A stretch of DNA of 47,484 nt from a virus. The position numbers and the translations under genes were made by a program. The notes beneath the pieces were generated by a model that worked only from the letters and a program-made list of their open reading frames with translations, was not told the origin of the DNA and made no database searches. The DNA lies in the IMG/VR virus record IMGVR_UViG_3300033998_000398, positions 1 to 47,484 of that record. One strand, written 5' to 3'. Below, piece after piece: positions 1 to 47,484 of this stretch. Within the stretch, counting starts at the first letter, position 1; each line of letters opens with the position of its first letter.

Positions 1-104
1 GTGTTGGTGCCTGGTGTTGGTGCCTGGTGTTGGTGCCTGGTGTTGGTGCCTGGTGTTGGTGCCTGGTGTTGGTGCCTGGTGTTGGTGCCTGGTGTTGGTT
101 CCAG
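1..104. repeat. 13-bp tandem repeat array, left end
   Basis: Seven perfect head-to-tail copies of GTGTTGGTGCCTG fill positions 1-91, followed by one decayed copy (92-104). The same unit fills the other end of the window (47352-47484). The array sits upstream of the promoter at 174. It is G/T-rich on the strand read as mRNA, like other tracts in front of early promoters here. Both ends stopping inside one short repeat suggests an assembler break in a circular or terminally redundant molecule. Confidence 0.95.
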
Positions 105-1553: not shown

Positions 1554-1605
1554 ACTGTAAAGTTTATATGATTTATCTGAACTTTTTCACCTTAAGGTGA
1601 AGGGG
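1554..1605 (+). promoter_or_regulatory. Early promoter with palindromic operator (Csx16 unit)
   Basis: The core ACTGTAAAGTTTATATG (1554-1570) is followed by GAACTTTTTC at 1579 and a perfect 16-bp palindrome TTCACCTTAAGGTGAA at 1586-1601, around the predicted start site. The same core-plus-operator arrangement with matching spacing occurs at 39700-39747, 44780-44827, 45816-45863 and 46425-46475. Overlap with the start site suggests repressor binding or a shared leader. Confidence 0.75.
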
Positions 1606-1650
1606 CATAACTTGGAGTCCCTCTAATAAGTGGAATGGAGTTGATACAAA

Positions 1651-1962
1651 GTGATTTATGTTGTAACCAGGCATGATGCCACTATAGAATGGATTAAGAG
1701 TATTGTTAAAGGGCGTGTTAGGGTTGTCCCACACCTTGATAATGATTGCATATTACAGATGAAACAGGGTGATATAGTATATGGGATTCTACCTATACAC
1801 CTGATTAAGAGGCTGCTGAGAAAAGGAATCACATATTATCATGTGGTTTTACCAAACATACCATTTGAGTGTAGGGGTAAAGAATTAACCCTTAGCCAGA
1901 TTAAAAAGTTCGGTGGACAGATATGGAAGATTAATAATATAGATTGTGAGATGGTGAGATGA
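1651..1962 (+). CDS. csx16: Csx16-family protein, putative viral ring nuclease (anti-type III CRISPR candidate)
   Basis: This 103-residue protein matches the Csx16 (Cas_VVA1548) family over its whole length: the N-terminal strand ending in Arg7-His8, IEW (12-14), His28-Leu29, Gly40-Asp41, the GILPIH stretch (45-50), and RGKELT (75-80) near the end. Csx16 normally accompanies type III CRISPR systems and is regarded as a ring nuclease that removes cyclic oligoadenylate. No cas gene is present here, so a virus-borne copy would most simply blunt host type III signalling, as AcrIII-1 does. The GTG start follows GGAGTTGAT. It heads a unit with three tiny ORFs under an early-type promoter. Family call is strong; the anti-CRISPR role is inference. 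Confidence 0.85.
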   Translation: MIYVVTRHDATIEWIKSIVKGRVRVVPHLDNDCILQMKQGDIVYGILPIHLIKRLLRKGITYYHVVLPNIPFECRGKELTLSQIKKFGGQIWKINNIDCEMVR

Positions 1963-3161: not shown

Positions 3162-3758
3162 ATGGTTCCCACATTTAAAGTAAAAGATTATATAGGAATT
3201 AATGGAGTTGGACTAAACCAACTAATACACCCACATTTTGAAAAATGGTTCGATTATATAATTAATGAATATGAAAAACCAGAAAAGAATAATGTAATTT
3301 TTTTACCATGTGCTGCCATTAAACCATACAATAATTCCCCATTACATAAAAAAATAAATGAAGTTCTCTCAAAATATGAAAATAATCTACACAAAGTTGT
3401 TATTTCTAATGCAGGTATTATACCTTATGAATTTATTGAATATTATCCATTTGAATCCTATGATTGGAATCCTGCATTTGAAGACAATATTAGCAAAGAA
3501 CTATATTATAATACGACATTAGTACGATTAAGATTATTTTTAAAAACTCATAAATATAGAGAATATTTTTCTTACCTTAACCCTGATTCATTATCATTTA
3601 AAGCACTAAAAAATGCATGTAAAACATTTAATTATAATTTACATCATCCTAAAACAATTAAATTAGATTACAAAAGAAAAGACCCTGATTTACTACTTAT
3701 TCATCCTAAAAATTTAGACAATTTAGACAATTTATTAAAACAGGTGATTAAACTATGA
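3162..3758 (+). CDS. Free-standing ArcS-like catalytic domain (7-deazaguanine modification)
   Basis: A 198-residue protein carrying the exact archaeosine synthase signature PC-X3-KPY-X2-S-X2-H at residues 49-62, followed by a segment resembling the ArcS core (DUF5591-type): a VISNAGIIPYEF strand and YPFESYDWNP. In cellular ArcS this domain follows a TGT-like domain and precedes a PUA domain and acts on preQ0 in tRNA; here it stands alone and overlaps (ATGA) a TGT-like gene. Together they look like ArcS split in two. The likely role is converting preQ0 placed in viral DNA to an archaeosine-like or lysine-linked base. Start is preceded by GAGGTGAATAA. DNA rather than tRNA as target is inference. 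Confidence 0.8.
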   Translation: MVPTFKVKDYIGINGVGLNQLIHPHFEKWFDYIINEYEKPEKNNVIFLPCAAIKPYNNSPLHKKINEVLSKYENNLHKVVISNAGIIPYEFIEYYPFESYDWNPAFEDNISKELYYNTTLVRLRLFLKTHKYREYFSYLNPDSLSFKALKNACKTFNYNLHHPKTIKLDYKRKDPDLLLIHPKNLDNLDNLLKQVIKL

Positions 3759-4681
3759 AATATTTTTTCGGTGAAACACCACAAAACCAACTAAACATAG
3801 ACCATGACATGGTAATGGATAGTGCACTATATTATTACACTAAAAAAGACCCTAAAATTAAATATAATTATAACACTCTTTTTATGGATTCAGGTGGGTA
3901 TGCTCTTATTAACAAAGATATTGACTTAGATAAGGACAGAATCCTGGATATTCAATCCTTAAATAATCCTGATTATGTAGCACCACTGGATTATCCTGCC
4001 AACCATTCATATCCTGATAGTGTTAACATTAAAAGATGGAATATTACTTTAAATAATACTGAATATTGGGTAGAAAACACTACCATGAATGTCGTGCCTG
4101 TAGTTCATGCTTGGAATTCCACAGTTCTAATTGATAATATTAAATCTTTAAGTAAATTTGATACGGAATTTATTGGAATCGGTAGAATATCCAGATCAGA
4201 TAGAATCCTCAACAAAGAATTGTTGAATAATTTGATGATAATTCTAAAGTTTTGTAAAGAAAATGGATTTAAAACTCATTTCTTTGGGTTTGGTTCATCG
4301 CCTATTACTTACCATTTAGGTGCATATATGGGTTTTACTACTACTGATTCAGTTGGATTTAAATTAAAAGCCATTAATAATAAAATTTTAATTCCTGATA
4401 TGGGGGAATGTGATGTTAATAGTCCAATAAAAAAATATAGATTGGAACAACTAAAAACTTGTGAGTGTCCTATTTGTGAAGATAAGAATATAGATGAAGT
4501 TATGATTTCTCTTAAGGAAAATTGGATTAATAGGGCTATACATAATAAATGGATTATTGATGATGCTGTCAGGAAATTTCATAGTTTTGATTGTAGAGAT
4601 GATTACAGGCTATATTTAGATGAAATTATGCAGTATTCTAATTATAAGCATATTTGGCAATATGTTTCTTATTTAATGTAA
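3755..4681 (+). CDS. dpdA: TGT-family transglycosylase, DpdA-like (DNA 7-deazaguanine insertion)
   Basis: A 308-residue TIM-barrel transglycosylase of the TGT family. Visible marks: FMDSGGY (43-49, first substrate-binding Asp at 45), PLDYP (77-81), VVPVVHAW (112-119), IGIGRISR (139-146), a TTTDS segment (194-198) that may hold the nucleophilic Asp, and the zinc site Cys235-X-Cys237-X2-Cys240...His262. It is shorter than cellular archaeal TGT and has no PUA domain, as in viral DpdA proteins that exchange guanine in DNA for 7-deazaguanine bases. AGGTGATT inside the upstream gene and an ATGA overlap indicate coupling. No preQ0-biosynthesis gene is present, so precursor would come from the archaeal host. 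Confidence 0.8.
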   Translation: MKYFFGETPQNQLNIDHDMVMDSALYYYTKKDPKIKYNYNTLFMDSGGYALINKDIDLDKDRILDIQSLNNPDYVAPLDYPANHSYPDSVNIKRWNITLNNTEYWVENTTMNVVPVVHAWNSTVLIDNIKSLSKFDTEFIGIGRISRSDRILNKELLNNLMIILKFCKENGFKTHFFGFGSSPITYHLGAYMGFTTTDSVGFKLKAINNKILIPDMGECDVNSPIKKYRLEQLKTCECPICEDKNIDEVMISLKENWINRAIHNKWIIDDAVRKFHSFDCRDDYRLYLDEIMQYSNYKHIWQYVSYLM

Positions 4682-5928: not shown

Positions 5929-6597
5929 TTACCATGGTTTGATTGTGTAGTATCCTATGTTTCTGCCGTGGGTTGCTGTGTCCATCATGTGGTAGTGGCA
6001 GGTGTAGATTCCTTTTGTTGGGTCGTATATGGTGTATTTGTCTCCTTTTATGGATTGGATTAGTGCATAATGTCCGTAGTTGTTTAGGAATCCGCTGCAG
6101 TGTGCGGCTTTTGTTTCATAGTGGGTTATGACTGCTTCGTAATTGTATAGTGCTTTCTGGACTGCTTCTTTGTTTCTGGGTATCCTGTTTATTGTTATTT
6201 TTAGTTTGTAGGCATTTTTCATCATTTTTTCTGGGCTTGTACCGTTTTTTGTTGTGCCTATTAGTTTGGCGATTTCTTTTTCTTCTGTGTATTTGAAGAA
6301 TTTGGTTAGTGCCATGCTTATGCTGGTTGGGCAACAGGTGTAGGGTGTTGTCTGGTATTTTAGGATGGTGGGTTCGTTTCTTTTCAGATTAACTGTGGCA
6401 TAATTTGGGTATCTGCCTTTATGATATCGGAAATTGTAGATTGTGTGGAATAGTCCTGAGTATTCCAGTGGTGTTAGTCTGATTTTGTTTTTTCCTCTGT
6501 TGATGTCTGCATAGTTGGGTAGTCTTTTGTTGGTTTTGATGAATTTGTGGATGTTTTCTTCTATTTTTTGGATTTCTTCTTTTGTGATTCGTATCAT
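5929..6597 (-). CDS. Endolysin: pseudomurein-binding-like region plus C39-like cysteine peptidase
   Basis: A 222-residue lysin. The N-terminal part (about 10-75) has two segments of the pseudomurein-binding repeat type, each with a Leu/Tyr-Pro-Asn-Tyr-Ala signature. The C-terminal part is a papain-like (C39-type) peptidase with Cys88/Cys89 in TPYTCCPTS, His176 in GHYALI and Asp192 in YDPTKG. It resembles PeiW/PeiP-type endoisopeptidases in domain layout and would cut peptide cross-links of host pseudomurein at lysis. A longer GTG-initiated frame starts inside the ribosome site AAAGGTGA, so I take ATG 6597. It is the last gene of the late operon. Confidence 0.85.
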   Translation of the reverse strand: MIRITKEEIQKIEENIHKFIKTNKRLPNYADINRGKNKIRLTPLEYSGLFHTIYNFRYHKGRYPNYATVNLKRNEPTILKYQTTPYTCCPTSISMALTKFFKYTEEKEIAKLIGTTKNGTSPEKMMKNAYKLKITINRIPRNKEAVQKALYNYEAVITHYETKAAHCSGFLNNYGHYALIQSIKGDKYTIYDPTKGIYTCHYHMMDTATHGRNIGYYTIKPW

Positions 6598-6633
6598 ATT
6601 TTTCACCTTTTAGATGTGTATGTGGTGAGTGTT

Positions 6634-39699: not shown

Positions 39700-39747
39700 C
39701 AATTAAAGGCGAAAAAGTTAAAGGTAATGGTATTTAAATGTTACGGT
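39700..39747 (-). promoter_or_regulatory. Early-type promoter with operator
   Basis: On the minus strand ACCGTAACATTTAAATA is followed after the usual gap by TAACTTTTTCGCC. The TTCAC-N6-GTGAA symmetry is mostly lost here (TTCGCC...TTGAG). It overlaps the end of the upstream signal-peptide gene. Confidence 0.55.
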
Positions 39748-44341: not shown

Positions 44342-44437
44342 TTATTTTAGTAGAACAGCAATTATCATTAGGATTATTACTGTAGAGGACACTATAATGT
44401 TATTCCAGTTAACCCCCAGATTATCCCATCTCATCAT
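44342..44437 (-). CDS. Tiny membrane peptide
   Basis: 31 residues with one membrane span (IIVSSTVIILMIIAVLL). The ATG lies behind AAGGTGTTGG and the gene overlaps the end of the upstream gene in another frame. Its size and design resemble the two peptides at 2100-2250. Confidence 0.5.
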   Translation of the reverse strand: MMRWDNLGVNWNNIIVSSTVIILMIIAVLLK

Positions 44438-44765
44438 CCAACACCTTTATGAATTTTGGGTCTACCATGAAATAAATACCGTAACTCATGGTGTAATAGG
44501 CTAAACCAATAATTTTACCATCATTCACCAATTCACCCCATAGGAAATCTTTTATCCTGTCAAGGTGGTCTGGTGAGAATTCATCATCGCTTATCACTCT
44601 ATCACATTCAGGTGAAATCATGTAAAAGAATTCACTGAGTGTAAAAGATTCCTTTAAGACATCCTCTATCCTCTTAAGTTTATCCTGTGTTAAATAAAAG
44701 TTGATGTCAGGGTAATCATAGAATCTGATTAGCCCTGATGGTAAAACCTCAGTTTTCCATTTCAT
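44421..44765 (-). CDS. Hypothetical acidic protein
   Basis: 114 residues with alternating beta/alpha segments and an acidic core (DDEFSPDHLDRI). It has its own early-type promoter with operator. RBS AAGGAGGTATATTAGT. No family recognised. Confidence 0.6.
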   Translation of the reverse strand: MKWKTEVLPSGLIRFYDYPDINFYLTQDKLKRIEDVLKESFTLSEFFYMISPECDRVISDDEFSPDHLDRIKDFLWGELVNDGKIIGLAYYTMSYGIYFMVDPKFIKVLDDEMG

Positions 44766-44779
44766 ACTAATATACCTCC

Positions 44780-44827
44780 TTCACTATAAGGTGAAAAAAT
44801 TCAAAACACTCATATATACCTTACGGT
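44780..44827 (-). promoter_or_regulatory. Early-type promoter with TTCAC-N6-GTGAA operator
   Basis: Minus-strand ACCGTAAGGTATATATG core (44811-44827), then GAATTTTTTC and the inverted repeat TTCACCTTATAGTGAA (44780-44795). The core lies over the last bases of the upstream gene. Confidence 0.7.
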
Positions 44828-45295: not shown

Positions 45296-45799
45296 TCACC
45301 CCTTTTCAAGTTTGAACCATTCAGTTTCATTGAATGGTACAGCAACACAATCAACGATTTCATTATTTATATCTGTGAAGAAAACCACTCCAGCATATTC
45401 AGCCGTATCCAAATTCACTTCAAGGAGACCTAAATCATCTAAATCATCTCCAGCATACCATTCACAATCACAAACCTTATTCTCTCTCACAAACTCTATT
45501 ATACTTTTAAAGAGGCTTGCTGGTGCCCCAACACTCCATTTTTTATTGTCATATACAGTGAGAGTGTTCATGAATAACATTCCAAGTCTCTCTTTATCCT
45601 CATCCTTAACAAAGAATGAGGTTTCAGCGTAATCCTCATTATCTATATCGCTCCACCCTTCAAACTTATAATTATACCTCCTTATCCTAACTACCCAGTC
45701 AAAATTCTTCATCCTGGGTGCAGGTATAAATTCCATTTCAAGTCCGTACTGCAGGTACCCATCTATACTATAAATCATATCCAGTTTTTCTTCAACCAT
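45296..45799 (-). CDS. Hypothetical acidic protein, first gene of the minus-strand early unit
   Basis: 167 residues with beta-type segments (FDWVVRIRRYNYKF), an acidic CDCEWYAGDDLDDLG patch and a Val-rich strand. First gene after the early promoter at 45816-45863. RBS GGGAGGTATATGTT. No family recognised. Confidence 0.65.
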   Translation of the reverse strand: MVEEKLDMIYSIDGYLQYGLEMEFIPAPRMKNFDWVVRIRRYNYKFEGWSDIDNEDYAETSFFVKDEDKERLGMLFMNTLTVYDNKKWSVGAPASLFKSIIEFVRENKVCDCEWYAGDDLDDLGLLEVNLDTAEYAGVVFFTDINNEIVDCVAVPFNETEWFKLEKG

Positions 45800-45815: not shown

Positions 45816-45863
45816 CACTAAAAGATGAAAAAGTTCAAAACACCCATATATAAACCTTACGGT
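45816..45863 (-). promoter_or_regulatory. Early-type promoter of the minus-strand small-gene unit
   Basis: Minus-strand ACCGTAAGGTTTATATATG core and GAACTTTTTCATC leader with the expected spacing; the inverted repeat is imperfect (TTCATCTTTTAGTGTA). This promoter faces away from the plus-strand promoter at 46425, making 45864-46424 a divergent control region. Confidence 0.7.
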
Positions 45864-46424: not shown

Positions 46425-46475
46425 ACCGGTACTTTTATATGGGGGTCTTGAACTTTTTCACATTAGAGTGAGGGG
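46425..46475 (+). promoter_or_regulatory. Early-type promoter with operator (plus-strand unit)
   Basis: ACCGGTACTTTTATATG core, then GAACTTTTTC (46450) and TTCAC-ATTAGA-GTGAG. A GGGAC-ACAA-GTCCC hairpin (46473-46486) follows in the leader before the ribosome site GAGGTGATTAG. Confidence 0.72.
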
Positions 46476-46506: not shown

Positions 46507-46803
46507 ATGGAGATACAAGTATATGAGACTGAGACAGGAAAAGGATGCCACATAGTGGAAATACAGGCAGAGGATAAACATATAATCGTATATCTTGCCT
46601 GCGAAGATGAACTATACGACTTACTACAGAGACTGCCTGATATCTACAGTGTTCTACGTTTCTTAGAGAATCTGGCAGATGACATAATGACTGACATAAA
46701 CTATCATCGTGTTGTTGAATTCATGCGCGAACATAAAAAGACAGCCTGCAGAGTTTTAATTAGAAATCAGGGGTTCTATGCATTAGAACCAATAAACCTA
46801 TAA
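46507..46803 (+). CDS. Paralogue pair member B (unknown function)
   Basis: 98 residues, similar along its length to the product of 42604-42894 on the opposite strand; both have the leader GAGGTGATTAGA. A DLLQRLP core and ACRVLI near the end are shared. Acidic, with an alpha/beta pattern. First gene of the plus-strand early unit. Function unknown. Confidence 0.75.
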   Translation: MEIQVYETETGKGCHIVEIQAEDKHIIVYLACEDELYDLLQRLPDIYSVLRFLENLADDIMTDINYHRVVEFMREHKKTACRVLIRNQGFYALEPINL

Positions 46804-46818
46804 TTTTGAGGTGGAATA

Positions 46819-47289
46819 ATGGTTAAAGTATACAACAAAACCCTCAATATAAATGAAGAGAATATAGAGGACTTCATCGACCTTGCTAATGAAATCATAG
46901 ACATAGTAAGCAGCGATGAAGATTACGAAGATGAACAAGTATTCAGTGAGATACCACGTAGTTGTTATCCTATTCCATGTTTAAACAATTATCTGGGTTC
47001 AGATGTGGATATAGGTGGCTTAGAACTGTCATTTTATCTTGAATCCTTGTACGAATACGTTGCAATGGTAGCTGATGAATATATCATGTTTAGTATGGAG
47101 AATCCCTATAAGACCGATTATGAGCTGCTTGATAGCTATAATCGGTTTTTAGCGATAACTGAAGGGGATTATGCCTATGACGCTAATCCCAGGGTGGTGG
47201 AGTATTTTGAGTATATCGGTGTCGGTAGACTTGAGGACAGTGGTGGACTTGAGTTTATTGATATCGATGATTCTCACTTACAAGATTAA
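46819..47289 (+). CDS. Hypothetical acidic protein
   Basis: 156 residues, strongly acidic (Asp/Glu clusters near 27-42 and at the end), Tyr-rich, with one Cys-rich loop (RSCYPIPCLN). RBS GAGGTGGAATA, 15 bp after the previous stop. Acidic proteins of this type often mimic DNA in phages, but no such family is recognised here. Confidence 0.65.
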   Translation: MVKVYNKTLNINEENIEDFIDLANEIIDIVSSDEDYEDEQVFSEIPRSCYPIPCLNNYLGSDVDIGGLELSFYLESLYEYVAMVADEYIMFSMENPYKTDYELLDSYNRFLAITEGDYAYDANPRVVEYFEYIGVGRLEDSGGLEFIDIDDSHLQD

Positions 47290-47304: not shown

Positions 47305-47351
47305 ATAAATGTCAGTATTACTTAATCTCATTTTTTTATTACGTGTTATGG

Positions 47352-47484
47352 GTGTTGGTGCCTGGTGTTGGTGCCTGGTGTTGGTGCCTGGTGTTGGTGC
47401 CTGGTGTTGGTGCCTGGTGTTGGTGCCTGGTGTTGGTGCCTGGTGTTGGTGCCTGGTGTTGGTGCCTGGTTTTGGTGCCTGGTG
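47352..47484. repeat. 13-bp tandem repeat array, right end
   Basis: Ten copies of GTGTTGGTGCCTG (the tenth with T for G at position 3) and three bases of an eleventh reach the end of the window. The unit and orientation are the same as at 1-104, so the ends would join into one array of at least 17 units; the true number is unknown. Confidence 0.95.

Follow-up and report, generated by a model that had tools for sequence, protein, structure and literature searches.

A 47.5-kb virus contig, which by its gene content is a tailed virus of Methanobacteriales, encodes a small protein that, judging from its sequence, is a full-length Csx16, with profile scores far above chance. Throughout the text, the window means the whole stretch of DNA analysed, 47,484 nucleotides in length. 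We consider it quite probable that this viral Csx16 is a ring nuclease which degrades cyclic tetra-adenylate (cA4) of the host and thus acts against type III CRISPR immunity. The proposed role is backed by profile matches, by residues invariant in 29 sequences, by location of the gene in a virus without Cas10, by a promoter common to other viral genes and by recurrence in several methanobacterial viruses. Most of what is known about viral ring nucleases concerns AcrIII-1. The original prediction, according to which this virus employs a Csx16-type enzyme in its place, fits all the evidence as to family, viral setting and proposed role; the novelty it implied does not hold, viral Csx16 being already on record in the viruses PhiF3 and Drs3 and in a survey from 2025.

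The profile search suggested with the original prediction, which had assigned exactly this open reading frame to Csx16, matched PF09652 (Pfam) at E=1e-24; the match covers 89 of the 91 positions of the model and scores 86.9 bits, with the cut-off at 25. TIGR02620 of NCBIfam ('CRISPR-associated protein Csx16') gave 56.3 bits at a cut-off of 46.35, and four PADLOC Csx16 models match as well, including that of the Csx16 part of CARF-HEPN-Csx16 fusions. Membership of the protein in AcrIII-1 / Crn2 (DUF1874) was considered and rejected, PF09652 being the sole Pfam match at E <= 1. AcrIII-1 shares the job proposed here for the window Csx16, blocking of type III immunity by cA4 degradation, but represents a different sequence family. 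Features of the window are listed in Table 1.

Table 1. Location of csx16, its presumed control elements and related features in the window
Feature	Position	Strand	Basis or remark
csx16, 103 aa, GTG start	1651-1962	+	PF09652, TIGR02620, PADLOC, conserved residues, AF2 model
Candidate ribosome-binding site GGAGTTGAT, 5 nt before csx16 GTG	1637-1645	+	sequence
Archaeal TATA-box-like element AAAGTTTATATGA	1559-1571	+	sequence; inside repeated module
GAACTTTTTCAC and perfect 16-bp palindrome	1579-1601	+	candidate operator
Promoter module variant, weak	39710-39738	-	
Promoter module variant	44792-44820	-	upstream of ORF 44421-44765 (-)
Promoter module variant	45826-45854	-	upstream of ORF 45296-45799 (-)
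Promoter module variant	46432-46460	+	upstream of ORFs 46507-46803, 46819-47289 (+)
Pseudomurein-binding repeat and C39 peptidase	5929-6606	-	PF03412 5e-12, PF09373 1.9e-6

Residue conservation was assessed in an alignment of 29 viral and cellular Csx16 homologues. R7, H8, H28, G45, L47, P48, R75 and G76 are invariant in all 29 sequences and the window protein retains every one of them; E78 and L79, shared by 28 of 29, are kept as well, and G40 is found in 27 of 29. The family signature (R-H near the N-terminus, central H, G-x-LP, RGxEL) is present in the window protein. All residues previously named as family marks occur in it, but IEW and H50 are not conserved among the 29 homologues. With cellular Csx16 (Cas_VVA1548; PF09652, TIGR02620) the window copy shares the full-length profile match and all invariant residues. 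It differs in being encoded by a virus without Cas10 and in small insertions around residues 33-35 and at residue 68, which set the methanobacterial viral group apart from most cellular copies.

Compared with its closest relative, locus L005 of IMG/VR, the window csx16 has 31, 22 and 63 changes at codon positions 1, 2 and 3, respectively, over 102 codons; such third-position excess is expected of a constrained protein. It is very improbable that, in the virus, the window Csx16 has taken on some unrelated function by drift. The activity of viral copies does rest on analogy with cellular Csx16, but the invariant residues are kept across divergent viral lineages, and changes accumulate mainly at third codon positions.

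The AlphaFold2 model of the window Csx16 (pLDDT 92.6, pTM 0.82) is of alpha/beta type, with strands alternating with helices. A Foldseek search with this model against PDB and viral models gave no hit at E <= 0.001, and ring nucleases of Crn1 type, like the CARF protein Cad1, were seen only among weak structural hits. A cellular Vibrio Csx16 used as control behaved alike, with weak hits of Crn1 type only, so that the search speaks neither for nor against a CARF-like (derived Rossmann) fold. As a point in common with AcrIII-1, a published Csx16 model matches 2J6B in DALI with Z 4.8 (PMC12409355). Crn1 (Sso2081, Sis0455), Csx20 and Csx15 have CARF-like folds, and Crn1 structures recur among the weak hits of the window protein. 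They differ from it insofar as these hits are not significant and a sequence search of PDB chains with the window Csx16 found no relative.

In cellular genomes, co-occurrence with Cas10 and proximity to it link the Csx16 family to type III signalling, as in the literature. Csx16 was detected in 23 of 369 gammaproteobacterial genomes. A strong Cas10 match was present in 19 of these 23 compared with 2 of 18 genomes lacking Csx16 (Fisher p = 5.8e-6; the 18 are the first listed, and the test ignores phylogeny), and csx16 and cas10 are 4.4-7.3 kb apart on 13 of the 14 contigs they share. A representative Csx16 is in vitro a ring nuclease specific for cA4, not cA3 or cA6, which turned over cA4 supplied in 100-fold excess (PMC12409355); from this published activity, cA4 degradation by the window Csx16 is predicted. 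A rather unlikely alternative is that the protein, while having the Csx16 fold, sequesters cyclic oligoadenylate or another cyclic nucleotide like a sponge or degrades it slowly, and acts in this manner against type III or other nucleotide-signalling defence. Precedent is provided by Csx15, a ring-nuclease candidate that binds cA4 well and degrades it very slowly (PMC13148439), and the insertions typical of the methanobacterial viral group could be read in the same direction. Against this speak the turnover by the tested Csx16, the retention in the window protein of every residue invariant in cellular Csx16, and the fact that Csx15 was not found in phages (PMC13148439).

Degradation of cA4 by the viral Csx16 would proceed as follows. 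When a methanobacterial host with a type III system is infected, its Cas10 would meet viral RNA and synthesize cA4. Csx16, presumably dimeric, would bind this cA4 in the surroundings of the conserved cluster R7-H8/H28/R75, to which we tentatively assign these roles, and would cut it to linear products. With cA4 removed, Csx1-type RNases and other cA4-activated effectors would stay off and immunity would be suppressed. PhiF3 has M. thermautotrophicus as its recorded host species; this archaeon possesses types III-A and III-C (PMC7694759), and the ancillary RNase of its III-A system is activated by cA4 (PMC6755085).

Cas10 was not detected in the window, and a PADLOC scan of 15 window proteins yielded no credible cas gene match besides csx16, in agreement with the earlier statement that the window is devoid of cas genes. 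Cas10 is also absent from four related virus records. The missing type III locus is what is expected of a viral copy, as association with such loci belongs to cellular members and is not a requirement of the family. A virus with Csx16 and without Cas10 would most simply use the protein to remove cA4 of its host, and a housekeeping role beside an own Cas10 is unlikely because the virus records lack it.

As expected of an anti-CRISPR, csx16 is carried by a virus: the same record encodes terminase large subunit, tape measure, minor tail protein and DNA polymerase, in addition to anaerobic ribonucleotide reductase, thymidylate synthase and a ParB-like protein. Since cell walls of Methanobacteriales are built of pseudomurein, the pseudomurein-binding repeat accompanied by a C39-type peptidase points to a host from this group, and the assignment is made to the level of order. 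The phage collection contains no near-identical virus.

The promoter anticipated before csx16, and conjectured to be early, corresponds to an archaeal TATA element lying within a module that is repeated in the virus. The module consists of the TATA element, followed by GAACTTTTTCA and a TTCAC-N6-GTGAA dyad, its repeated part spanning 1561-1589. The TATA motif has an exact match at 1559-1570 only and is by itself not above chance. The whole module, on the contrary, has five matches in the window at <=3 mismatches against 0.35 expected, a number reached in none of 100 shuffles, and recurs ahead of no fewer than three further gene groups in the virus. The dyad is represented by the palindrome TTCACCTTAAGGTGAA (1586-1601), located at the expected transcript start. 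A common viral regulator acting at the start sites is likely, and the sites seem to belong to a single regulon served by the same operator. As the RNA fold of the csx16 5' leader is not unusual (z 0.08), a DNA operator explains the palindrome better than an RNA element does; Rfam gave no match. The csx16 genes of PhiF3 and Drs3 have TATA-type promoters of their own, without the module of the window.

Relatives of the window protein occur in further viruses. In the phage collection, Csx16 is encoded by the Methanobacterium viruses PhiF3 (ORF30, 45% identity) and Drs3 (ORF3, 36%), in both cases annotated as Csx16 already by the depositors. A scan of IMG/VR with the window Csx16 as single sequence found no relative, whereas a scan with an alignment from three viruses led to four loci, and one with the divergent subset to three more. 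Among them, L005 comes from a virus of archaeal type (PCNA, weak pseudomurein-binding repeats) and its Csx16 is 58-59% identical to that of the window. L006, L007, L008, L015, L016 and L017 form a divergent viral group of the same profile family; the central part of these proteins is shortened, and GC content is 0.27-0.57 in those contigs measured. In the tree, the divergent group is separate with support 98/96 and the four methanobacterial virus copies are together with support 90/92, which is below threshold. A scan of genome contigs recovered only a Vibrio locus. Directly after csx16 of Vibrio genome G001, a 420-aa open frame, possibly a Csx16-containing fusion protein, includes a weak second Csx16-like stretch (C53:16563-17130; L010 / L014).

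The PhiF3 and Drs3 genes resemble the window csx16 in family, in location near the genome end, in having a promoter of TATA type and in belonging to a methanobacterial tailed virus; the viruses themselves are different and have few detectably similar genes. Besides csx16, the window shares with them only terminase, two tail proteins and one small open reading frame, at 23-45% identity, and with the L005 locus only a peptidase (28%) and an exonuclease (33%), as compared to 58% for Csx16. As the other genes are mostly unrelated, csx16 appears to have been exchanged between these viruses or to be unusually conserved among them.

These observations also bear on a quite improbable explanation, namely that csx16 is a cargo gene taken from a host type III locus and benefits the host or else a provirus, for instance if toxic signalling is kept low in the carrier state, instead of serving lytic counter-defence. 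In its favour, csx16 usually accompanies type III loci of cells as an accessory gene, and proviruses exist among related Anaerodiviridae (PMC8651126). The tree is moreover unrooted with respect to the origin of the viral gene and comprises no methanogen cellular copies, so that capture of csx16 from a host cannot be dated. The four methanobacterial virus copies are nevertheless placed together, albeit below threshold; csx16 is under promoter control of viral type, and no integrase was seen among the window proteins scanned.

The 2025 survey counts Csx16 in 2 of 28,114 phage genomes, presumably those of Drs3 and PhiF3. Since viral Csx16 has been annotated and counted before, the window copy is a further member, in a distantly related virus. 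New are the IMG/VR relatives (L005 and the divergent group), the occurrence of csx16 in viruses otherwise mostly unrelated, and the promoter module; in the literature searched we found no description of the additional viral lineages or of the shared module, nor any assay of a viral Csx16. In a survey of tailed archaeal viruses from 2021, Drs3 included, no clear anti-CRISPR homologues were reported, which indicates that this class was overlooked in viruses of methanogens. More tentatively, and with some doubt on our part, Csx16 could be a standard anti-type III gene of methanobacterial tailed viruses, which is passed between lineages with otherwise different genes, is controlled in the window virus by a regulon with dyad operator and fills the place of AcrIII-1 in methanogen viruses, a second and divergent viral group existing elsewhere. 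The window copy, its L005 relative and the isolates PhiF3 and Drs3, whose hosts are recorded, make a small set in which the anti-CRISPR nature of viral Csx16 can be tested.

Several minor features were noted in the surroundings of csx16. A 46-aa cysteine-containing open reading frame (1963-2103, +) begins with ATG directly after the csx16 stop and is a possible operon partner. Further along the left arm (3162-4681, +), an ArcS-like (DUF5591) gene adjoins a TGT/DpdA-like gene, whose product had no tblastn match in the phage collection. The pair suggests 7-deazaguanine modification of viral DNA, and csx16 may therefore be situated in a counter-defence region. Both ends of the window (1-99 and 47351-47484) carry the 13-bp tandem repeat GTGTTGGTGCCTG; possibly, therefore, the contig represents a complete genome that was closed or cut within a repeat, in which case csx16 would be located downstream of the (+) genes of the right end.
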